Of a DNA stretch of 64,000 bases, positions 14,436-26,060 are shown one piece after another. The stretch's first letter is position 1; every line of letters starts with the position of its first letter. The notes beneath the pieces were generated by a model. That model had not been told where the DNA came from and searched no databases. It worked only from the letters and a program-made list of their open reading frames with translations. Both the position numbers and the translations under genes were made by a program. This stretch comes from Opitutaceae bacterium (lineage in GTDB: Bacteria > Verrucomicrobiota > Verrucomicrobiia > Opitutales > Opitutaceae): assembly GCA_003151515.1 (NCBI GenBank), contig PLXS01000007.1:62001-126000 (forward strand), written 5' to 3'.

Positions 14436-16361
14436 ATGCGCCGATCCGTAATCCTGGGCGCGGTGGCGCTCGCCGTTGCGGCCGCCGCCGCCGCGGCGTA
14501 CTGGCCCGCCCTGACCGGGGGGCTGGTCTGGGACGACGACGGGCACATCACGCGGGCCGCCTTGAGGTCGCTGCGGGGGCTAAGGGCGATCTGGCTCGAG
14601 CCGGGAGCGACCCAGCAGTACTACCCGGTGCTCCACAGCCTGTTCTGGGTCGAGCACAGGCTCTGGGGCGACGCCCCGCTGGGCTACCACCTGGCGAACC
14701 TCCTGCTGCACCTTGCGGCCTGCGCGCTCCTTTACCGGGTCCTGCGCCGCATCGAGGTGCCCGGAGCGCTGCTGGCCGCCTCGCTGTTCGCGCTGCACCC
14801 GGTCTGCGTGGAGTCCGTGGCATGGATCTCGGAGCAGAAGAACACGCTCTCGACCGTGTTCTACATGGCCGCGGCCCTGGCCTACCTGCGCTTTGACGGG
14901 GGGCGCCGGCGCGGGTGGTACGCCCTTGCGACCGCGCTCTTCGCGGCCGCGCTCCTGAGCAAGAGCGTCACGGCGAGCCTCCCCGCGGCGATCCTGGTCG
15001 TCTTCTGGTGGAAGGGGAGGCTTTCGTGGCGCGCCGCGGCGCCGCTCGCTCCCTGGTTCTGCCTGAGCGCCGCGGCGGCCGTGGTGACCCCGTGGGTCGA
15101 GAGCAAGTTCGTGGGGGCCTACGGGCCCGCGTTCAACCTCGGTTTGACCGACCGCATCCTGATCGCGGGCAGGGCGCCGTGGTTCTACCTGGGCAAGATT
15201 GTCTGGCCGGCCGACCTGGTGTTCATCTACCCGCGCTGGAAGCTGGATTGGACCGACGCCGCCCAATGGGCGTACCCGCTGGCGGCAGCCCTGGCGCTCG
15301 TCCTGCTCTGGGGGGTGCGCGGCCGCGCCCGCGGCCCCCTCGCCGCCGCGCTCCTCTTCGTGGGCACCCTCTTCCCCGCGCTCGGCTTCATAGACGTCTA
15401 CCCGTTCGTCTTCTCGTTCGTCGCGGACCATTTCCAATACCTGGCCGCCGCGATCATGATCTCGGCGCTGTCGGCGGGCGCCAGCATCCTCGCCGGCCGC
15501 TGGCTCGTGCGCCGGGCAGGGATGGCCGGCGCCGCGACCCTCTGCGCGTGCGCGGCGCTCGCGTGCCTCACCTGGCGCCAGAGCGGCAAATACCACGACA
15601 TCGAGACCTTCTACCGGTCCATCCTTGAGGGAAACCCGTCCAGCTGGCTCGCCCATGACAACCTGGGCGTGGTCCTTGTCCAGCGAGGGCGCCTCGAGGA
15701 GGCCGTGGGGCACTACCGGGAGGCCATCAGCCTCAATCCCGACTATCCCCAGGCCTACAACAACTACGGGAACGTCCTGGCCAAGCAGGGCCATTTTGCC
15801 GAGGCCGCCGAGGAGTACGCAGGCGCGCTTAAGGCGAGGCCGTCGTTCGCGGCCGCCGAGTACAACTGGGGCAGCGCCCTGAGCGACTCCGGCAACTACT
15901 GGCAGGCGGAGGCCCACCTCAGGAACGCGATCAAGATACAGCCCGACTACCCGCAGGCCCATTACGCGCTGGCCAACGCCCTGGCGAACTCGGGGCGCCT
16001 GGACGCGGCGGTGCCGGAGTACGCCGAGGCCCTCAGGCTCGAGCCGGACTATCCCGAGGCGCACGCGAACCTGGGCCTCGCGCTCGCCGAGAAAGGCGAC
16101 TGGGTCGGGGCGCTGGCGCAGATAACCGAGGCCGTGCGGCTTCGCCCGGGCTACGCGGAGGCGCACGCCTACCTGGGATTCGCCCTCGCCGGGTCCGGCC
16201 GCTACGAGGATGCGCTCTCGGCTTACGGGCAGGCCCTTACGATCGGGCTCAACAACGCCGACCTGCACTACCAGATGGGGATCGCCCTGCGGAAGCTCGG
16301 CCGCATGGACGAGGCGCGGGCCGAATTCGCCGAGGCCACGCGGATGGAGGGGCGGAGGTAG
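14436..16361 (+). CDS. Multi-pass membrane protein with GT-C-like domain and TPR repeats (copy 3 of 3)
   Basis: Third paralogue, 641 residues, starting 33 bases after copy 2. Landmarks: GLVWDDDGHITRAALRS in the first loop and ALHPVCVESVAWISEQKNTL. It has about ten membrane segments and about seven TPR units beginning at SWLAHDNLGVVLVQRG, one more than copies 1 and 2. Copies 2 and 3 share the VAWISExKNTL form that copy 1 has as VTYAVQRAESL, so they look more closely related to each other. The trio is probably one transcript from a promoter between the terminator and 10642, perhaps reading on into dinB, which begins 7 bases later. Confidence 0.85.
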   Translation: MRRSVILGAVALAVAAAAAAAYWPALTGGLVWDDDGHITRAALRSLRGLRAIWLEPGATQQYYPVLHSLFWVEHRLWGDAPLGYHLANLLLHLAACALLYRVLRRIEVPGALLAASLFALHPVCVESVAWISEQKNTLSTVFYMAAALAYLRFDGGRRRGWYALATALFAAALLSKSVTASLPAAILVVFWWKGRLSWRAAAPLAPWFCLSAAAAVVTPWVESKFVGAYGPAFNLGLTDRILIAGRAPWFYLGKIVWPADLVFIYPRWKLDWTDAAQWAYPLAAALALVLLWGVRGRARGPLAAALLFVGTLFPALGFIDVYPFVFSFVADHFQYLAAAIMISALSAGASILAGRWLVRRAGMAGAATLCACAALACLTWRQSGKYHDIETFYRSILEGNPSSWLAHDNLGVVLVQRGRLEEAVGHYREAISLNPDYPQAYNNYGNVLAKQGHFAEAAEEYAGALKARPSFAAAEYNWGSALSDSGNYWQAEAHLRNAIKIQPDYPQAHYALANALANSGRLDAAVPEYAEALRLEPDYPEAHANLGLALAEKGDWVGALAQITEAVRLRPGYAEAHAYLGFALAGSGRYEDALSAYGQALTIGLNNADLHYQMGIALRKLGRMDEARAEFAEATRMEGRR

Positions 16362-16368
16362 ACGCGCC

Positions 16369-17577
16369 ATGCCCCTGGATGCGCAGGCGGCGCTCCCACG
16401 GATCGTCCACCTGGACGCGGACGCGTTCTTTGTCGCGTGCGAGCAGGCGCGCGACCCGTCGCTGCGCGGCAAGAAGTGCGCGGTGGGGGGCCGGGAGCGC
16501 GGCATCATCTCGTCGGCCAGCTACGAGGCCCGGGCGTGCGGCGTGTACACGCCCATGCCGACGGCGAGGGCGAGGCGCGTGTGCCCGGACCTTGTCCTCA
16601 TACCGCACACGTTGGGGCTCTACGGCGCAGTCTCGCGTCGCATGTTCGACCTCTGCGAGGAGCTGACGCCCCTCGTCCAGCGCAACTCGATAGACGAGGG
16701 CTACCTCGACCTCGGGCCCTGCCGCCACCCTTCGATGGAGGCCATCGAGGGCGCCGTGCGGGCGCTGCAGAGGCGCATCTGGGACGAGCTCGAGATCCCG
16801 GTCTCCATGGGTATGGCCGCGAACAAGCTCGTGGCGCAGATCGCGTCCAAGTTGCGCAAGCCCAGGGGTTTCGTGATTGTGCGCCCTGGCGAGGAGGGCG
16901 CCTTCCTCGCTCCCCTTCTGGTGGGCCGGCTACCGGGAATCGGGGTCAAGACGGAGGCCCGGCTTGCGACGCTTGGAATCAAGATCGTGAGCGACCTGCT
17001 GTCGAGGAGCGAGGCGCAGCTTGCCGCGGCCTTCGGGCGCGACTGGAGAAACATCGTCGAGGCCGCTCTGGGCCGTGACACGAGCCCGGTCGAGACGCAG
17101 TCCGGCGACGCGAAGAGCTATTCTCAGCAGGAGACCTTCGCCTCGGACGTGAGGGACTTCGCGGCCGTCGAGCGGATCGCCAAGCGGATGCTCGACGAGC
17201 TCATGGCCAAGGTGCGCGCCGACGGCGCTAAGGTGCGGACGGTCACGATCTACGTTCGGTATCCAGATTTCACGCACGAGTCCCACGGCAGGAGCATCGA
17301 GGCGCCGACTGACATCGAGGCTCCGTTCTATCCTCTCGTGGGCCCGCTCCTGCGGCGCGCCTGGCGCAGGGACAGGCCGCTGCGGCTCGTGAGCGTGCGC
17401 CTCTCGGGCGTCGGGGCGGGCCCGGCGCAGCTCGAGATGTTCGCGGAGGTTGACGACAGGAGGAGGAGGCTGGCCGCCGTCGTCGACAGCCTGAACAGGA
17501 AGGGGGGCGGGGGCGCCGTGATGCACGGCCACCAGCTGGGGCCCTCGCCGACGGGTACTGAAAAAAAGGATACATGA
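16369..17577 (+). CDS. dinB: DNA polymerase IV (Y-family translesion polymerase)
   Basis: Error-prone polymerase that bypasses damaged bases. The 402-residue product has the catalytic acidic residues in HLDADAFF (Asp16, Asp18) and NSIDEGYLDL (Asp109, Glu110). The helix-hairpin-helix RLPGIGVKTEARLATLGI lies near residue 190, followed by a little-finger domain. Near the C-terminus QLEMF matches the beta-clamp-binding pentapeptide pattern. The ATG at 16369 sits directly before the conserved N-terminus, 7 bases after the last TPR gene. No LexA box was recognised upstream, which fits the apparent read-through arrangement. Gene ends in a run GAAAAAAAGG just before the stop. Confidence 0.95.
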   Translation: MPLDAQAALPRIVHLDADAFFVACEQARDPSLRGKKCAVGGRERGIISSASYEARACGVYTPMPTARARRVCPDLVLIPHTLGLYGAVSRRMFDLCEELTPLVQRNSIDEGYLDLGPCRHPSMEAIEGAVRALQRRIWDELEIPVSMGMAANKLVAQIASKLRKPRGFVIVRPGEEGAFLAPLLVGRLPGIGVKTEARLATLGIKIVSDLLSRSEAQLAAAFGRDWRNIVEAALGRDTSPVETQSGDAKSYSQQETFASDVRDFAAVERIAKRMLDELMAKVRADGAKVRTVTIYVRYPDFTHESHGRSIEAPTDIEAPFYPLVGPLLRRAWRRDRPLRLVSVRLSGVGAGPAQLEMFAEVDDRRRRLAAVVDSLNRKGGGGAVMHGHQLGPSPTGTEKKDT

Positions 17578-17882
17578 GGGCCGGAAGGCCGGCGCGGGGG
17601 AGGCGCCCGGGGGCGCCCGCAAGGGGCCTCAGGGGGGATTGGGGACGTTCCCGGGGCCAAAGCGCGGAAAATTCAAAAAATTTAACAATTCAGCGCCACA
17701 AACCTGTTGACGGCTGAAACGCAAAGCTCAATAGGTTGTGGCCGGTAGGGGCATTGACCACATCCTGTTGTGGTCAACAATGCGTAAATAAGTTCCAGCA
17801 ACTTTTGGTCGCTAGGGCTCGTTGCGCGTCGGAAATACCCCTGTTCGCGCCCCTTTTCCCAACAATTTCGCCAGCAGCATCC
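17578..17882. other. 305-base control region upstream of nrdB
   Basis: No gene is seen here. The left 100 bases are G/C-rich with weak hairpins (GGCC-ggaa-GGCC; GCGCC-cggg-GGCGC) that lack a T tail. From 17660 the sequence turns A/T-rich and contains a TTGACG at 17707-17712 that could be a -35 element, with only a poor -10 about 17 bases on. It also holds the inverted repeat annotated at 17754-17777. Confidence 0.5.
17754..17777. promoter_or_regulatory. Perfect inverted repeat TTGACCACA-N6-TGTGGTCAA before nrdB
   Basis: Two 9-base arms separated by 6 bases, about 105 bases before the nrdB start. Each arm matches 7 of 9 positions of the DnaA box TTATCCACA. A related direct-repeat flavour is nearby (CACAAACCTGTTG at 17697-17709 and CACATCCTGTTG at 17759-17770). 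The site could bind a repressor such as an NrdR-like or other dimeric regulator, or DnaA. It does not fit the NrdR box consensus well. Confidence 0.5.
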
Positions 17883-18968
17883 ATGCAGAAAATCTTCCAG
17901 GTAGGCACAAAGACGTTCGTCCTCGATCAAGCCAAGGCCGAGAGGGCGTTTGCGGAGAAGCGCGTCATCAACGGACGCGTCACCATGACGTTCAACCTCC
18001 TCCCGCTTAAGTACCAATGGGCCTACGACCTCTACCGCAAGATGAAGGCCAACCACTGGGAGCCCGAGGACATCCCGATGGGCAAGGACATCGAGCAGTG
18101 GCGCGACGCCAAGGCGGTGAGCGACGTCGAGCGCTGGATCATCCGGATGGGGATCGGCTACTTCTCGGCCGCGGAGGGGATCGTCGGGGACAACATCCAA
18201 CACGTCGTCCGCGAGCTGGTCACCGCTCCTGAGCTGAAGCTGGTCCTGGGCAGGCATGCCCACGAGGAGAACATCCACGCTGACTCGCTCCTCTACATGA
18301 TCGCCTCCCTGGGCATCAACCCGCACGAGTGCGAGGCGATGTTCGAGGACATCCCGACCATCGTTCGCAAGAACGAGTTTGTAACGCGGGTTTCACACGG
18401 TCTTCGCAGGGACCTGGACCTCACGAAGCCCGAAAACAAGAAGCTCCTCGCATCGAACATGTTCGTGTTCGGGCAGTGCATGGAGGGGACGCAGTTCTAC
18501 GGGCTCTTCGGCATGGTTCTATCGCTGTACCGCCAGAACAAGTTCCCGGGGATTGGCCAGATGTTCCGATACACCCTTCGCGACGAGTCCAACCACATCG
18601 AGGTGTTCCGTAACCTGTTCATGGACTTGGTTGAGGAGAACCGGGAAATCTGGACGCCCGAGTACAAGGAGGAGCTGCGCGGGCTCATGCGCGAGGCGGT
18701 GATGCTCGAGAAGGAGTTCATCCGCGACTGCCTGCCGGTCAACGCCGTGGGCCTGAGCCTCGAGGACTTCCTAGCCTACATTGATTACATCGCCGATCGC
18801 CGCCTCGAGGGCTGCGGTCTGGCGCCGCTCTCGAGCGGCATCAAGAATCCCCTGCCATGGCTTGCTGAGATGATGGACATCGCGAAGGAACAGAACTTCT
18901 TCGAGGGCCGGGTAACCGAGTATCAGAAGTCATCCTCGCTCAATGTAGCGTCAGACGACGAGCTCTGA
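17883..18968 (+). CDS. nrdB: Class I ribonucleotide reductase, beta (radical-generating) subunit, chlamydial-like
   Basis: The 361-residue ferritin-like subunit stores the oxidant that starts ribonucleotide reduction in the partner NrdA. All six metal ligands of the family can be placed: Glu98 (SAAEGIVGDN), Glu129 and His132 (HEENIHADS), Glu201 (MEGTQF), Glu235 and His238 (RDESNHIE). The residue four after His132, where E. coli NrdB has radical Tyr122 and Chlamydia has Phe127, is Leu136; Tyr138 two residues on is kept. The AAEG first-ligand block resembles the chlamydial class Ic form. This points to a tyrosyl-radical-free enzyme with a high-valent metal centre, perhaps containing manganese. 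nrdA follows after 152 bases. Confidence 0.95.
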   Translation: MQKIFQVGTKTFVLDQAKAERAFAEKRVINGRVTMTFNLLPLKYQWAYDLYRKMKANHWEPEDIPMGKDIEQWRDAKAVSDVERWIIRMGIGYFSAAEGIVGDNIQHVVRELVTAPELKLVLGRHAHEENIHADSLLYMIASLGINPHECEAMFEDIPTIVRKNEFVTRVSHGLRRDLDLTKPENKKLLASNMFVFGQCMEGTQFYGLFGMVLSLYRQNKFPGIGQMFRYTLRDESNHIEVFRNLFMDLVEENREIWTPEYKEELRGLMREAVMLEKEFIRDCLPVNAVGLSLEDFLAYIDYIADRRLEGCGLAPLSSGIKNPLPWLAEMMDIAKEQNFFEGRVTEYQKSSSLNVASDDEL

Positions 18969-19120: not shown

Positions 19121-22100
19121 ATGAGCAACATCCCCCTTGCCCAGGACCTGGCCCTCAAGAGAACGGTCCACGCCCCGCTTGAACAGAAGCCCATATACGC
19201 CTGGCGCGATGTCGTCCCCGCGGGCGCGATCCAGCTTCCCCCGATAGTCCTCCTGTGCCCGCACGGGGAGGAGCGCTTCGACATCGCCGAGGTTGCCGAC
19301 ACGCTGGGCAAGGCGTTCACGAACGTCTGCATCGCGCAGGGCGAGAAGGAAATCTTCACCGAGAAGAACCGCGCCTGGGTGGCCCAGATCTGCCGTGAAC
19401 TGGCCGCAAACCTTTCCGAGCTTGCGCGCCTGCAGAATCCGCTGCGCCTGACGCTCGACGGCCTCTACGAGCTCATCGAGAAGACGCTGGTCGACAACAA
19501 CGCCTACATGGTGGCCAAGAGCCTCCTGCTCAACCGCTCCCGCAAGCTCGCGGTCGGCCGCGACTCCGGCGTCCAGAGCACGGTTCGGGTGATCCGGCGA
19601 AACGGCCATGTCGTCCCGTGGAACGACCAGAAGGTCGAGATCGCCGTCCGAAAAACGTTTCTTTCCCTGGCGCGCGACTCCGCGCCCGCGGTTGCGATCT
19701 CGAAGGCCGTCTCGGAGCGCATCATTTCCGCGCACCAGGCGTTCGTGCGCATCGAGGAGGTCCAGGACATCGTTCAGGAGGAGCTCATGAAGGCGGGCCA
19801 CTTCAAGGTGGCCGAGGCGTACATACTTTACCGCGCCGAGCGGGCCGTGGCCCGGGCAGAGGGCACGTCAGGGACGGTCGAGGTGGCGGAGCAGCCCGTG
19901 GCGGGGCAGGGCACGCTTGTCGTCGTCAAGCGTGCCAACGGCGAAACGGTCCTCTGGGACGGGGCCGACCTGAGCAAGCGAATCGAGTTCGCACGGACGG
20001 GGCTCGATCTGTGCCTGTCGGCCGAGGAGATTGAGCTCGAGCTCAGGCGTTCGATTTACGACCAGATCGCGCAAAAGGACCTCGATTCGACGATTGTCCT
20101 CAACTCCAAGACCCTGATCGAAAGGGACGCGGATTTCGCCAAGTTTGCCGGCCGCATCCAGCTCACCTACATCTACGAGGAGGTCCTGGGTTGGGACATC
20201 CTGCGCGACGGCCTCGGCAAGCTGAGGGAGGCCCACCAGAAGGCCTTCAGGAAATACATCGAGCACGGGATCACCATCAAGCGCCTCAACCCGAAGCTGC
20301 TGGAGTACAACCTGGCAAAGCTTGCGGGGGCGCTCGATCCGTCGGCCGACCTGGAACTCGACTTCTTGGGCGTCCAGACGCTCTACGACCGTTATCTCGT
20401 CATCGACAAGGTTTCCAAGTCCTCGAGGCGCATCGAGACGCCCCAGTTTTTCTGGATGCGGGTGGCCATGGGGCTTTTCTTGGAAGAGAATGGCGACCGC
20501 GAAACAAGGGTTTCCGGGCTCTATGACCTATACAAGAACCGGCGCTTTTGCTCGTCGACCCCGACCCTGTTCAACAGCGGCACGCAACATTCTCAGCTCA
20601 GTTCGTGTTTTTTATATTTCGTTGACGACTCGATAGAAGGGATATTCCAACGCGGCATCGCAGAGAACGCCTACCTGTCGAAATGGGCTGGCGGCTTGGG
20701 CGGCTCCTGGACTTCCGTCCGCGGCACGGGCGCATACATCGGCGGCACGAATGGCGAGTCCCAGGGCGTCATCCCGTTCCTCAAGCTGCACAACGACCAG
20801 CTGGTGGCGGTGAACCAGTGCTTCGCCCCCGAGACGGTCGTCTACACGGCGGACGGCCCCAAGGCCATCCGCGATGTCGCAGTTGGGGACCTCGTCCTGG
20901 GCAACAGCGGCACGTATCGGGAGGTCACGGATGTCTACGCCTACGATCAGCACGGCCCGATGGTGGCCGTGAAGATCAAGCACTCGATCGAGCCCATTCG
21001 GGTGACTACCGGGCACCCGTTCTTCGCCATTCAGGGCGTGCCCATGGAACAGAACATCGCGCGAACGGCGCGCTGGCTGGAAAAGGGAAAGATCCGCAGC
21101 CGGTGGGTTGATGCGTCCGAGCTCCGGCGCGGGGACTACGTGGCCCAGACGATTCCCTCGCAGGTGATGCCTGTGGAGGGTTTCTCCGAGGACGATGCGC
21201 GCATATATGGCATCCTGCTGGGGGACGCGTACCTCTCAAAGGAGGGCCGCCAATGGGGTGTCTCGGGGCACCCGGTGCGCGACGAACACATCCAGTTTGT
21301 CCGGCAGTACCTTTCCGATCGAGGCATCCATTCCTGGGAGACGGGCCGCGGCGAGACCTACCTGCAGATCCATTGGGCGAGCGGAAGGGGAGTTGTGCGC
21401 GACGGGACAACCGGGTGCATTGCGGGAGCTGGGGCGCCCACCATGCCCTTCGGGTACGATGACCTCTATGACCAGAACGGGGCGAAGCGCATAGCGCGCA
21501 GGTTTGCGCACCTGCCGCACGGGCAAACCCGTGCGTTGATCCAGGGCCTTCTCGAGACGGACGGAGGAGTCTCCCGCGGGGCCGAGATCTACTTCACAAA
21601 TACTTCGCAGCCGCTGGTCGAGGGCCTGCGGTACCAGCTCCTGCGCCTCGGTATCCCGACCGCCGGGCAATTCCGCAAACGCGATGCGGCGCATACGGGC
21701 ACGCGCTCCGATGGCTCGAAGATCGAATTCAAGGGGGTGAGCGAATGCTATGACGTCCGGATTCCCGCGGTGCTGGAGATCGCGTCCCTTGTCGGCTGCA
21801 AGCCCATCCGAAAGAGAAACTGGTTCATCCACGACGGCTGCGCCTACTCGCGGGTGAGGGAGGTGGTGAGCATTGATCCGGTCCCGTTCGTCTTCGACCT
21901 CAAGGTGGAAGGCGACGAATCCTACACGACGAACGCCGCCCTCGTTCACAACGGCGGGAAACGCAAGGGCTCGGGCTGCGCCTACCTCGAGAGCTGGCAC
22001 AACGACATCTTTGAATTCCTCGAGCTGAGGAAGAACACGGGAGACGACCGGCGCCGTACCCACGACATGAATACGGCGAACTGGATCCCGGACCTGTTCA

Positions 22101-24724
22101 TGAAGCGCATGGAGGCCCGCGGGCACTGGACCCTGTTCCGCTCGAACGAGGTGCCGGACCTCCACGACTCGTTTGGCAAGAAGTTTGAGGAGCTCTACCT
22201 CAAGTACGAGGCCATGGCGGACGAGGGCAAGATTCACGGGCACAAGGTCGAGGCCCTGGTGCTTTGGAAGAAGATGCTCTCGATGCTATTCGAGACGGGC
22301 CACCCCTGGATCACGTTCAAGGACCCATGCAACGTGCGGTCGCCGCAGGACCACGTGGGGGTCGTTCACTCTTCAAATCTTTGCTGCATCACGGCGGATC
22401 AGCGAGTCGTGACATCGGAGGGTCTTGTGACTGTTGGCTACCTCTACGAGAAAGCGCGCCGTTTGGCCCTCGTGGGAGCCGGTGGAAACACGCCATTGGC
22501 TACGGAACCCGTGAACACGGTATTTGGGCGCTCCGGTCCGGTGCTCGCGGGCCCGATGCTTTTGCCGCGCCCGGATGCTCCGATAGTCAAAATACACACA
22601 GAAGAAGGATACACCCACAAGGTCACGCCGGACCACAAGGTGTGGGTTGTCGGGCGCGGATGGATCGAGGCCCAGGAACTCGTGGTCGGCGACCTTATTG
22701 AGATTCAGCAGGGCGAGGGTCTCTGGGGTTCCGTCGAAGCGGTTGACGAGGCCTTCTTGTGCGGCCTGATCGCCGGCGACGGGACATTCATGTCGCACAA
22801 AGGCGATTCGAAGTCCGCTGTCATTGATGTTTGGGCGCAGGAGTTCTCCCTAATCCCGGAAATCGAGGCGATCGTGAGCCGCATGCTTGCGGCGGCCGAT
22901 GAAGTTTACAACACGGGTTCGAAGCGCCAGCCCGTCTTTGTTGGCGATGAATACAAGCGCCGGCTGACTTCGGCGCCTCTGGCCCGTATCCTTGAGGCGC
23001 GCGGCTTCACGACGGGGACAAAGTTAAAGGTCCCAGACTTCATATGGACCGGTACGAGGGATACGGTTGGCGCATATCTGCGGGGCCTTTTTGCTGCGGA
23101 CGCTACTGTCGAGTCGAGTGGAGAAGTAACCACTTGTGTATTGGCTTCGGTCAACAAGGGCTTCTTGGAAGAAATCCAAATCCTTCTGGCGAACTTCGGA
23201 GTGAAGGCGTCGCTTCGCAGTATAAGGAGGGAAGGACCGATCGAGATGCCGGACGGCCAAGGCGGCACAAAGCAGTATTGGCAGGCCGACCTTTGGCGAT
23301 TGATGGTCACGTCGATCCGAGGATGCCGTATCGTGGAGAACCTAACTGGCCTCGGAGCCTTGAGAAAGAATGCCCGATTCCTGTCGCACTTGGAGAAGCC
23401 TGGATATGTGCAAAAGCTGCATGCAACGTTTGCGGGCTTGGAAATCCTGCCGAACGAAGACGCATACTGCCTGCAGGTTTTCACTGACGAGCATTCGTGG
23501 ACGGTGAACGGGATAGTCACGAAGAACACGGAGATAACCTTAAACACGTCCAAAGAGGAAACGGCGGTCTGCAATCTGGGTTCCATCGTCCTTGAGACGC
23601 ACCTCATGCCGGACGGATCGATAGACCACAAGAAGCTGCGCGAGACGATCCGCCTTGCGGTGCGCGCACTGGACAACGTGATCGACATCAACTTCTACCC
23701 GACCGAGGCGGCCAGGCGCTCGAACATGCGCCACCGTCCGATCGGCCTGGGGGTTATGGGCCTTGCCAACTCACTCTACATTAAGGGCATAGCCTTCGCA
23801 TCCCCGGAGGCGGTCGAGTTCAACGACGAGGCGATGGAGGCGATCGCGTTCTACGCGTACGAGGCGAGCTCGGACCTCGCGGCCGAGCGGGGCACCTACT
23901 CGAGCTACAAGGGCTCGAAGTGGGATCGCGGCCTCCTGCCGTTGGACACCGTCGACATCCTGGAGAAGGAGCGCGGGCTGCCGATCCAGGTGCCGCGCAA
24001 GGCGCGCATGGACTGGTCTCCCCTGAGGGCGAAGATAGCCGCGCAGGGAATGCGCAACAGCAACGTCCTCGCGATAGCGCCTACGGCGACGATATCGAAC
24101 ATCACGAACACGTCGCCCTGCATCGAGCCGACCTACAAGAACCTCTTCGTCAAATCGAACCTCTCCGGTGAATTCATCGTCCTGAATCCTTTCCTCGTGA
24201 AGGACCTGAAGGCGAGGGGCCTCTGGGACCGGGACATGCTGGACAACCTGAAGTACTTCGACGGCGAGCTTAAGGACATCGACCGGGTGCCGCAGGACCT
24301 GAAGGACAAGTACCTCACGGCATTCGGGATCGACCACAAGTGGGTGATCGACGCGGCGGCGCGGCGCCAGAAGTGGATCGACCAGTCGCAGTCCGTGAAC
24401 CTGTGGATCAAGACCCCGGACCTAAAGACGCTGTCGCACATGTACCGCTACGCGTGGCACGCGGGCCTCAAGACGACGTACTACCTGAGGAGCCTGGGCG
24501 CCTCGAACATCGAGAAGGCAACCGTCCAGGTTAAGAAGGACGTGCGCGGAGCGATCGGCGAATCGCGAGCGGAGATGGCGGCGGAGAGCGCCGCTGCGAG
24601 CCTCCTGACAACGAGCCCCTTCCCGGTGGAGGGCACGGCGAAGAAGGAGTACACGGCTGAGGAGAAGACGGCGTGCTCCATCGAGGCCATGCGCAACGGC
24701 GGGACGTGCGAGGCCTGCCAATAA
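19121..24724 (+). CDS. nrdA: Class I ribonucleotide reductase, alpha (catalytic) subunit precursor with two inteins
   Basis: The 1867-residue precursor reduces to about 1108 residues if both inteins leave. Three ATP-cone-like regions lie at about residues 41-142, 152-240 and 265-352; the middle one is the best preserved (VIRRNGHVVPWN), the first looks degenerate. Catalytic elements: Cys496 (SQLSSCFL), Cys1088 of NLC, Glu1471 of TEI, Cys1484 (ETAVCNLGSI), the APTATISNI loop, the paired tyrosines in LKTTYYLRS for radical transfer, and C-terminal shuttle cysteines 1863 and 1866 (CEAC). Intein 1 separates AVNQ from GGKRKG; intein 2 separates NLC from TEI. Activity therefore requires accurate splicing at both. 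The extein and its ATP-cone count resemble chlamydial NrdA. Confidence 0.96.
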   Translation: MSNIPLAQDLALKRTVHAPLEQKPIYAWRDVVPAGAIQLPPIVLLCPHGEERFDIAEVADTLGKAFTNVCIAQGEKEIFTEKNRAWVAQICRELAANLSELARLQNPLRLTLDGLYELIEKTLVDNNAYMVAKSLLLNRSRKLAVGRDSGVQSTVRVIRRNGHVVPWNDQKVEIAVRKTFLSLARDSAPAVAISKAVSERIISAHQAFVRIEEVQDIVQEELMKAGHFKVAEAYILYRAERAVARAEGTSGTVEVAEQPVAGQGTLVVVKRANGETVLWDGADLSKRIEFARTGLDLCLSAEEIELELRRSIYDQIAQKDLDSTIVLNSKTLIERDADFAKFAGRIQLTYIYEEVLGWDILRDGLGKLREAHQKAFRKYIEHGITIKRLNPKLLEYNLAKLAGALDPSADLELDFLGVQTLYDRYLVIDKVSKSSRRIETPQFFWMRVAMGLFLEENGDRETRVSGLYDLYKNRRFCSSTPTLFNSGTQHSQLSSCFLYFVDDSIEGIFQRGIAENAYLSKWAGGLGGSWTSVRGTGAYIGGTNGESQGVIPFLKLHNDQLVAVNQCFAPETVVYTADGPKAIRDVAVGDLVLGNSGTYREVTDVYAYDQHGPMVAVKIKHSIEPIRVTTGHPFFAIQGVPMEQNIARTARWLEKGKIRSRWVDASELRRGDYVAQTIPSQVMPVEGFSEDDARIYGILLGDAYLSKEGRQWGVSGHPVRDEHIQFVRQYLSDRGIHSWETGRGETYLQIHWASGRGVVRDGTTGCIAGAGAPTMPFGYDDLYDQNGAKRIARRFAHLPHGQTRALIQGLLETDGGVSRGAEIYFTNTSQPLVEGLRYQLLRLGIPTAGQFRKRDAAHTGTRSDGSKIEFKGVSECYDVRIPAVLEIASLVGCKPIRKRNWFIHDGCAYSRVREVVSIDPVPFVFDLKVEGDESYTTNAALVHNGGKRKGSGCAYLESWHNDIFEFLELRKNTGDDRRRTHDMNTANWIPDLFMKRMEARGHWTLFRSNEVPDLHDSFGKKFEELYLKYEAMADEGKIHGHKVEALVLWKKMLSMLFETGHPWITFKDPCNVRSPQDHVGVVHSSNLCCITADQRVVTSEGLVTVGYLYEKARRLALVGAGGNTPLATEPVNTVFGRSGPVLAGPMLLPRPDAPIVKIHTEEGYTHKVTPDHKVWVVGRGWIEAQELVVGDLIEIQQGEGLWGSVEAVDEAFLCGLIAGDGTFMSHKGDSKSAVIDVWAQEFSLIPEIEAIVSRMLAAADEVYNTGSKRQPVFVGDEYKRRLTSAPLARILEARGFTTGTKLKVPDFIWTGTRDTVGAYLRGLFAADATVESSGEVTTCVLASVNKGFLEEIQILLANFGVKASLRSIRREGPIEMPDGQGGTKQYWQADLWRLMVTSIRGCRIVENLTGLGALRKNARFLSHLEKPGYVQKLHATFAGLEILPNEDAYCLQVFTDEHSWTVNGIVTKNTEITLNTSKEETAVCNLGSIVLETHLMPDGSIDHKKLRETIRLAVRALDNVIDINFYPTEAARRSNMRHRPIGLGVMGLANSLYIKGIAFASPEAVEFNDEAMEAIAFYAYEASSDLAAERGTYSSYKGSKWDRGLLPLDTVDILEKERGLPIQVPRKARMDWSPLRAKIAAQGMRNSNVLAIAPTATISNITNTSPCIEPTYKNLFVKSNLSGEFIVLNPFLVKDLKARGLWDRDMLDNLKYFDGELKDIDRVPQDLKDKYLTAFGIDHKWVIDAAARRQKWIDQSQSVNLWIKTPDLKTLSHMYRYAWHAGLKTTYYLRSLGASNIEKATVQVKKDVRGAIGESRAEMAAESAAASLLTTSPFPVEGTAKKEYTAEEKTACSIEAMRNGGTCEACQ
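20819..21952 (+). other. Intein 1 in NrdA (378 residues, LAGLIDADG endonuclease, Gly at +1)
   Basis: In-frame protein insert, precursor residues 567-944. Splicing blocks: A begins with Cys567 (CFAPETVVYTADG); B has the Thr/His signature VTTGHPFF; F is VFDLKVEGDESY; G ends ALVHN with His-Asn. Between them are two dodecapeptide endonuclease motifs, IYGILLGDAYLS and LIQGLLETDGGVS, so it is a full-length homing intein. The flanking extein AVNQ/GGKRKG is contiguous in intein-free relatives, which fixes the borders. The residue after the terminal Asn is Gly945 and has no nucleophile; standard class 1 splicing needs Cys, Ser or Thr there. See the finding. Confidence 0.93.
22385..23527 (+). other. 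Intein 2 in NrdA (381 residues, LAGLIDADG endonuclease, inserted at NLC/TEI)
   Basis: In-frame insert, precursor residues 1089-1469. Block A starts at Cys1089 (CITADQRVVTSEG), directly after extein Cys1088. Block B is HKVTPDHKVWV, and the endonuclease motifs are LCGLIAGDGTF and YLRGLFAADATV. Block F is QVFTDEHSWTVNG, and G ends IVTKN with Lys where His is usual. Thr1470 is a valid +1 nucleophile. The insertion point matches the active-site location used by other RNR inteins, such as the NPC/SEI site of the NrdJ-1 split intein. Base composition looks less G/C-rich than the exteins, with more A/T-ending codons, which suggests later arrival. Confidence 0.94.
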
Positions 24725-24838
24725 CCGGCAGGGCCAATGCTGGTCCAAAGTCAGGCATCGGCCGGGTCGGGGGTGTGCGCAGGGCCTGGATGTAGCGTCT
24801 CTCGGCCTTGAGGTTGCCTCTTCCGCAGGAGCCGCCGC

Positions 24839-24864
24839 ATGCAGATTTGGCGATCCGAGGCGCC
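24839..24864. repeat. Left copy of an imperfect inverted repeat flanking the broken outer-membrane gene
   Basis: The plus-strand sequence starting ATGCAGATTTGGCG and ending GAGGCGCC matches the minus strand of 26141-26166 at 20 of 26 positions. The pair encloses the pseudogene at 24894-26060. Whether this is a mobile-element remnant is unknown. Confidence 0.35.
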
Positions 24865-24893
24865 GGTGGGCCGCGAAGGAAGCGGGAGCCTAG

Positions 24894-26060
24894 GTGAAGA
24901 CCCCATCGAACCGGTTAGGCTCAATCGCTACTATCTGGTGGATGCGTTCGCTCCATTTGGGCCCCGACCGGCGGCTTGAAAGTCCAGATCCACTGTCGCG
25001 CTCGGGCCCGCATGCCCGAGGCCCTTGCGCCCGGCCCTCACGGAGGATCCGCAACTCGCGCCGCGCATGTGTGCTTTCAGCTGTCTTCCTCATCTGCGCA
25101 CGCCTGAACCTCCATGCGCAGGAGCTGTCTTTCCTGGGCGGCACGACGACTGAGATGAACGTCAAGGACTCGAGCTACACCTGGCAGATCGACTACCGGC
25201 AGGACTTCTACGAGAACTTCGCCTCGTCGCTCGCCTACATCAACGAGGGCCACGTAATCGGCCACCATCGCGACGGCGACGCGTGGGAGGCGTAGGGTAA
25301 CCTGCCCTTGTTCAATGACCGGATCGCGGTGTCGCTCGGGGCGGGTGCCTATTATTACTACGACACGCAGTCCATCGGGGGCAATTCGGCTGACATTCAT
25401 GGCACGGCGCCCATTTTCAGCTTCACCGCCACAGGCTACCTTTCCGATCGCCTCTTCTACCGGATCATTGTCAACCGCATCAGCCCATCGGGTGACGTAA
25501 AGACCACCACCGCGGCCGTAGGCGTGGGGTATTGGTTCGGACTCGACCGGCGCCCGATCGGCAAGGAGCCCGACAGGGAGGGCGCGGTCGAGGCGAAGTA
25601 TGTTACCGAGCCGCAGCTCACAGCCTTTGGGGGACAGAGCGTCGTGAACACCTTCCTGAGCCAGAAGGCCATGGCGGGAGCGGTCGAATACCGCCAGGAT
25701 GTCCTGCCGCACATCGACGGGACGGCATCGTTCATCTATGAGGGCGACTCGGACATCGCCAGGCGAAGCGGAGTCGCGGTGCAGCTTTGGCCGGTCAACA
25801 CGTTTCTCGATGAGAGCACATCGGTCGGCTTCGGTCTTGGACCGTACTTCTACATTGACCAGAGGCATCTCCAGAACACCGGTCAGACCGGGAATGTGGG
25901 CTTCAAGAATCCGGCCGCCATCGCGCCGCTGGCTTCTCTGACCATAGCCAGGAAGTTGTCCGATCACTGGATCACCCGCGTGGTCTGGGACCGCGTCATC
26001 AGCAACTACAACCGCGATTCCGACATCTTCCTCATCGGGCTCGGCTACTACTGGCGCTAG
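24894..26060 (+). pseudogene. Outer-membrane beta-barrel-like protein interrupted by one in-frame amber codon
   Basis: A single frame runs from 24894 to 26060 apart from TAG at 25293-25295, and both halves read as one protein. The first part has a signal-like hydrophobic stretch (VLSAVFLICARLNLHAQ), preceded by an unusually long Arg/Ser-rich leader, then LGGTTTEMNVKDSSYTW and amphipathic strands. The second part continues with NLPLFNDRIAVSLGAGAYYYYDT and more strands, ending LIGLGYYWR like a barrel closing strand. The interruption reads GDAWEA-stop-GNLP, so TGG to TAG is a likely single change. The true start may be a later GTG near 25068. I do not recognise the family. It is probably inactive unless amber is suppressed, or the codon is a sequencing error. 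Confidence 0.75.

Follow-up and report, generated by a model that had tools for sequence, protein, structure and literature searches.

An intein in the NrdA of bacteria and phages that probably splices onto glycine

Can a protein splice when the residue following its intein offers no side chain to accept the extein? This question is raised by intein 1, the first of two inteins in the large subunit of class I ribonucleotide reductase (RNR), NrdA, of an Opitutaceae bacterium (GenBank assembly GCA_003151515.1, contig PLXS01000007.1, positions 62,001 to 126,000; this whole stretch of 64,000 nucleotides is called the window below). Standard class 1 splicing needs a nucleophile at the first C-extein position (+1) for the branched intermediate, and intein 1 is followed there by Gly. 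The original prediction offered three readings of this: a different mechanism, cleavage instead of splicing, or an inactive intein. We favor the first, retain cleavage as its rival, and find the evidence set against inactivity. The same Gly in unrelated bacteria and phages probably reflects real, working, unusual protein splicing, and from the sequence comparisons below we judge it reasonably likely that intein 1 is functional and horizontally mobile and that it splices despite Gly +1.

The border of the intein is exact. All four splicing blocks, A, B, F and G, are present in the alignments, as are the Cys1, TxxH block B, two LAGLIDADG motifs and terminal His-Asn that had been read from the sequence (Table 1). 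The gene had also been called otherwise intact, and the NrdA frame is indeed open for 1867 aa. In Pfam, LAGLIDADG_3 scored above its cut-off on intein 1, and Hint_2 and Intein_splicing below theirs. A comparison with intein-free verrucomicrobial NrdA had been proposed as a check; the empty allele of a same-genus genome (G321, locus L031) reads VAVNQ/GGKRKGSGCAYLE, so that VAVNQ directly meets GGKRKG. In the order of Thiothrix we also surveyed 63 genomes with the family profile plus 30 aa of extein per side, calling a site empty when query positions 1-30 directly abutted 409-439. The intein was found in 22 genomes (one truncated at a contig end) and the exact empty site VAVNQ/GGKRKG in 29, eight of which were also read as sequence; one genome gave a weak match elsewhere and 11 gave no match. 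Of 397 genomes from the order of Kibdelosporangium, 2 have the intein, with many empty sites among the matches listed, and the solved NrdA structure 5im3 is intein-free at the same site (residues 428-457). Gly is thus the residue that empty alleles have there, and the intein sits directly in front of it. The range first given for the intein, 20819 to 21955, holds up to 21952, and its last codon (21953-21955) belongs to Gly945 of the C-extein. Gly945 itself, encoded by GGC, stands. A sequencing error, or a misplaced border with a true +1 Cys, Ser or Thr, is to all intents ruled out by the empty alleles and by VNQ/GG in 32/32 family members.

Glycine at +1 is a trait of the whole family. Members were collected by homology, and removal of five loci fetched twice left 32 distinct ones, from the window, 27 other bacterial genomes and four viral contigs, all with Gly +1. 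Counted as locus rows, Gly is present in 37/38, and the 38th (L072) stops short of the junction. The junction script required VNQ+Cys and a downstream R-[KR]-G-x-x-C-[AG]-Y, not Gly +1, and lost only L072. Hosts identified by name comprise Thiothrix eikelboomii, Thiolinea disciformis, Thiofilum flexile, Kibdelosporangium aridum, Nocardiopsis alkaliphila and three metagenome-assembled genomes (MAGs; Opitutaceae, Verrucomicrobia and Proteobacteria). Other inteins in these same NrdA proteins served as an internal control, and 4/4 of those read have a conventional +1 residue, Thr (window intein 2, L129) or Cys (L004, L128); G428 and G437 hold further candidates.

A junction-based scan, Gly-biased by design, added the viral contig L025 and a fragment, L029. 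A looser scan for xN/GGKRKGA returned 17 stretches: 12 were new and contained no intein, and five were already known (L025-L029, all but L026 being NrdA). Among 387 sampled genomes of the window's phylum (E limit 1e-20), only the window's own genome matched; 372 genomes of its order gave five matches, full-length only in the own genome and L020. Collections of named phages and plasmids yielded 7 and 2 records, respectively, that resemble intein 1 (20-29% identity); those with annotation have it in other proteins. With L025 as query, 20 phage records matched, including the split NrdA of LR756504.1 described below. Another search yielded 45 phage records, and the three that were opened all hold intein-free NrdA. 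The 186-kb viral contig of L015 (G1163) has more intein-like matches at 69582, 73889 and 100372, which suggests a phage with several inteins. No account of a Gly +1 intein in RNR was found in the literature searched, a weak negative because subscription papers were mostly out of reach; the available passages of a Thiomargarita paper report inteins in two of its reductases and give no splice-site residues (PMC4853749).

The comparison of intein and host sequences indicates that intein 1 moves horizontally, between distant hosts, because intein identity exceeds that of the flanking NrdA: 67.5% versus 53.8% between the window and Thiothrix (L002), and 60.2% versus 42.9% between the window and the viral L025. 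In trees, the NrdA of L071 (G426) lies on a very short branch (0.01) among neighbors carrying ordinary family members; its intein has an end branch of 1.27, far from the neighbors' inteins, at a weakly supported placement. This intein ends in Ser-Asn and has His in block F, again with Gly +1. The pattern points to an independent second invasion of one site.

Conservation of the splicing residues was counted over 31 aligned inteins (33 were read; L063, with ambiguous bases, and L066 were left out), collected by a script that demanded Cys1 and [HS]N before GG and lost no candidate locus. Cys1 is the only invariant Cys (31/31), and a second conserved Cys was sought across these 31 and not found. 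Thr10 and Tyr369 are present in 31/31 and Thr371 in 30/31; Thr371 is replaced by Ile in L017 and by Val in the split L155. Because of this survey we see no class 3-type Cys and no obvious new side-chain nucleophile conserved. Two other candidates were rejected. Glu occupies the usual His place of block F in at least 90% of 32 rows, but it is no hallmark of the Gly +1 type, as L071 has His, L069 has Ala, and PI-PkoII also has Glu. The nearest C-extein Cys, considered as a distant nucleophile, is at +9 in the window and most members, but L025 has it at +8 and L155 lacks it.

Endonuclease motifs are damaged in L073, L074, L070, L008 and L084, and the splicing residues are kept in all five. Nonsynonymous (dN) and synonymous (dS) divergence of the two domains was compared pairwise by Nei-Gojobori estimates. 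For L070/L067, dS is 0.25 in both domains, whereas dN/dS (omega) rises from 0.196 for the splicing domain to 0.692 for the endonuclease. This is a clean sign of a relaxed endonuclease and a constrained splicing domain, and the only clean contrast among the decayed lineages. Pairs with intact endonucleases have dN ratios of 0.7-1.4 between domains, with splicing-domain omega of 0.03-0.15. The decaying endonucleases of L073 and L074 (G424, G436) and of L070 (G400) are natural steps towards mini-inteins.

Many host cells also seem to depend on the intein-bearing NrdA, judging from their gene content. PF02867 and PF13597 were searched in 24 of the 29 bacterial intein carriers (left out were G399, G400, G405, G419 and G563), and in 15 of the 24 this search detected no reductase besides that NrdA. 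The 15 include cultured Thiothrix, Thiolinea and Thiofilum, and also G378, where the NrdA gene is apparently spread over two contigs. The other nine have another candidate: NrdD in the window's genome (G000) and in G372, G426, G432, G433 and G434; G376, G377 and G414 instead encode a second PF02867 protein. The search for a second reductase that had been suggested for the window's genome thus has a positive answer, a class III NrdD on contig C42. Class III reductases are anaerobic. Two NrdD matches (G426:C4:80358-82128 and G432:C1:2201790-2203586) are split between two frames or contain an in-frame TGA.

How might an intein join its exteins onto Gly? We propose that Cys1 forms a thioester with Gln -1. 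No branched intermediate would form at the C-extein, because no +1 side chain can accept the acyl group. Instead, Asn378 would cyclize and free the alpha-amine of Gly +1, and this amine would attack the Cys1 thioester directly, joining VNQ to GGKRKG. An unhindered Gly as acyl acceptor may make this direct route efficient enough. For type A bacterial intein-like (BIL) domains, direct amine attack on the Cys1 thioester has already been put forward, with cleavage dominant (PMC4031507).

Intein 1 resembles the class 1 LAGLIDADG inteins TliVMA, PI-SceI and PI-PkoII in its Cys1, block B TxxH, block F Asp and His-Asn end, in its inserted endonuclease, conserved host enzyme and coexisting empty and filled alleles, and, among the PDB matches listed, in predicted fold. 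Its profile matches there include PI-PkoII (E 5.3e-7), a BIL domain (2lwy, E 9.7e-6) and gp41-1 (E 0.0019). At position 1, where class 1 inteins have Cys or Ser, the family has Cys; at +1, class 1 inteins have Cys, Ser or Thr, whereas every member read has Gly and hence no route to the standard branched ester. Class 2, with a nucleophile at +1 and none at position 1, does not fit an intein with Cys1 and Gly +1. The class 3 inteins MchDnaB1 and MsmDnaB likewise combine mobility with unusual splicing chemistry, but they have Cys at block F position 4 (the WCT motif) and no Cys1, in contrast to Asp360 and Cys1 here. Class 3 inteins also still need a +1 nucleophile.

The likeness to BIL domains raised in the original prediction holds for the chemistry and not for family membership. 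Type A BIL domains such as that of C. thermocellum (2lwy) share the non-nucleophilic +1 residue and the His-Asn end (30/31 here). Intein 1 differs from them in its LAGLIDADG endonuclease, its one fixed site in a conserved essential enzyme, its constant Gly +1 and its mobility. Its location does not fit either, for published BIL domains lie in hypervariable regions of non-conserved proteins (PMC7765530). We therefore propose, by analogy, that intein 1 works like a type A BIL domain without being one; in effect, it would use the chemistry put forward for those domains while living as a homing intein.

Several points weigh against splicing onto Gly by a mobile intein. The ligation of VNQ to GGKRKG is a prediction from sequence, and double cleavage without joining would leave an identical selection signal on the splicing domain. 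Published intein-like domains lacking a +1 nucleophile yield mostly cleavage products (PMC4031507, PMC7664689), one of them needed Cys in place of its +1 Tyr before it would splice (PMC4031507), and a review states that type A domains cannot ligate (PMC7765530). The contrast in L073/L056, with dN of 0.011 in the splicing domain and 0.261 in the endonuclease, is confounded because dS differs too (0.17 versus 1.52); the dS gap of L073/L074 perhaps comes from recombination or from poor alignment of the decayed part. L008/L059 and L005/L084 have no endonuclease dN excess (ratios of 0.9 and 1.2). Between Thiothrix and the actinobacterial L005 and L006, intein (66.7%) and flank (67.9-69.0%) are about equally similar. 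Finally, no other reductase may mean one not assembled, because several hosts are drafts or small MAGs.

The main rival is cleavage without ligation, in which the intein is excised at both ends and NrdA persists as two non-covalently associated chains. Cys1 and His-Asn suffice to cut both ends, and Friedrich 2007 reportedly describes a natural two-piece reductase that retains its function. The prevalence of cleavage among intein-like domains (PMC4031507, PMC7664689, PMC7765530) also speaks for it. The cut would fall within the barrel-domain model PF02867, at about positions 66-72 of 523, which tells against cleavage. Another objection comes from two viral members in which NrdA is apparently split. 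L131 lies on an IMG/VR contig of 194,657 bp (IMGVR_UViG_3300008448_000002, 21500-26000) and has NrdA in two adjacent frames. The first ends with the N-terminal part of NrdA and AAVNQ/C...LLTTEY followed by a stop, giving an N-terminal intein half (IntN) of 109 aa. The second begins at an ATG 8 nt on, after an AAGGA that overlaps the first stop, and opens with a C-terminal half (IntC) of 61 aa that ends ...GFVHN/GGKRKGAACVYLD. We regard L131 as a candidate for a naturally split intein that lacks a +1 nucleophile, leaving some residual weight to a frameshift error as the cause of the split. L155, in the 636-kb phage record LR756504.1 (434700-441032), has NrdA interrupted at the same site by an IntN (RAVDQ/C...), a separate 309-aa frame with no Pfam match above cut-off, and an IntC (...GLVHN/GGG). 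A group I intron (RF00028, 60.4 bits) follows shortly after the Gly codons. Both keep Cys1, block B and His-Asn, with Gly +1. Loss of the intein tails would give two chains at once, yet both retain IntN and IntC with these residues, which argues against simple cleavage, though neither objection is decisive. On balance we consider cleavage unlikely, though less so than the remaining alternatives.

These two loci otherwise resemble the split-intein genes of phages, broken in two (gp41-1, NrdJ-1, NrdA-2), that Dassa reportedly described in 2009. Like those, L131 and L155 have NrdA halves in two genes, bearing IntN and IntC, and L155 also has a frame between the halves; the Gly +1 of L131 and L155 is different.

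A second alternative keeps splicing but adds a step, with an internal Ser, Thr or Tyr taking the acyl group and passing it to the Gly +1 amine, similar to class 3 at another position. The conservation of Tyr369, Thr10 and Thr371 would suit such a role. However, Thr371 is replaced in L017 and L155, Thr10 is shared with gp41-1 in the alignment, a Thr in block B is common to inteins in general (PMC4031507), no Cys but Cys1 is conserved, and position 4 of block F holds Asp rather than Cys. An internal nucleophile is accordingly rather improbable. Least able to survive is an inactive intein in a cell served by another reductase, for which the class III NrdD in the genomes of the window and of L001, the second PF02867 protein in two actinobacterial hosts and the total of 9/24 genomes with another candidate could be cited; it is very improbable given the 15/24 genomes with a single detected reductase, the low dN/dS of the splicing domain, Cys1, the block B His and the terminal Asn conserved in 31/31, the splicing residues kept even where the endonuclease decays, the listed NrdA frames running across the intein without stops and with no frameshifts seen in the splicing domain of the listed members, and intein 2, which interrupts the NLCTE motif as well.

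The NrdA protein of the window matches PF02867 (E 6.6e-173) together with ATP-cone and lgN, and NCBIfam NF005544 at 1207 bits (cut-off 965), and it carries the RNR motifs SSC, NLC/TE (split by intein 2), AVCNLG, YYLRS and a C-terminal CEAC. Intein 2 ends in Lys-Asn, without a penultimate His. The upstream nrdB has TTG as its listed start; the true start is probably further inside the listed frame. Upstream of nrdB lies a Y-family DNA polymerase gene (impB/mucB/samB, DinB-like; 16210-17577), in whose frame 67 residues precede the first Pfam match.

Table 1. Features of the nrdB-nrdA locus and of intein 1, in window coordinates
Feature	Position	Strand	Evidence
nrdB, ribonucleotide reductase small subunit	17736..18968	+	PF00268 E 4e-65
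nrdA, class I ribonucleotide reductase large subunit, 1867 aa including two inteins	19121..24724	+	open frame; Pfam; NCBIfam
Intein 1, 378 aa, Cys567-Asn944, between Gln566 and Gly945 (VNQ/GGKRKG)	20819..21952	+	sequence, relatives, empty sites
Cys1, predicted N-terminal thioester nucleophile	20819..20821	+	31/31 members
Block B TTGH (Thr63, His66)	21005..21016	+	Thr63 30/31 (1 Ser), His66 31/31
LAGLIDADG motif 1, YGILLGDAY	21206..21232	+	sequence; degenerate in L070, L073, L074
LAGLIDADG motif 2, ALIQGLLETDGG	21533..21568	+	sequence; Pfam LAGLIDADG_3 E 1e-9
Block F, VFDLKVEGDESYTT, Asp360 present, Glu at usual His place	21890..21931	+	Asp360 30/31 (gap in other)
Block G His377-Asn378, predicted C-terminal cyclization	21947..21952	+	Asn 31/31; His 30/31 (Ser in L071)
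Gly +1 of C-extein, Gly945, codon GGC	21953..21955	+	Gly in 32/32 distinct members
Intein 2, 381 aa, inside NLC/TE motif	22385..23527	+	sequence; TIGR01445 from residue 1089

Known intein classes rely on Cys, Ser or Thr at +1; intein-like domains, the known exceptions, cleave for the most part. That a widespread Gly +1 element sits in the sole detected reductase of many hosts suggests that ligation without a side-chain nucleophile can suffice for life. More tentatively, and aware that it may well prove wrong, we propose that these elements are true mobile inteins of an additional class, distinct in mechanism, with efficient direct ligation by the Gly +1 amine and no branched intermediate, and that they home to an RNR site that cannot have a +1 nucleophile; the phage split forms would then trans-splice onto plain Gly, with no Cys, Ser or Thr scar. 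Whether a natural intein can dispense with the branched intermediate is testable in cultured bacteria such as Thiothrix. If it can, split inteins that join proteins without a leftover reactive residue may be possible.
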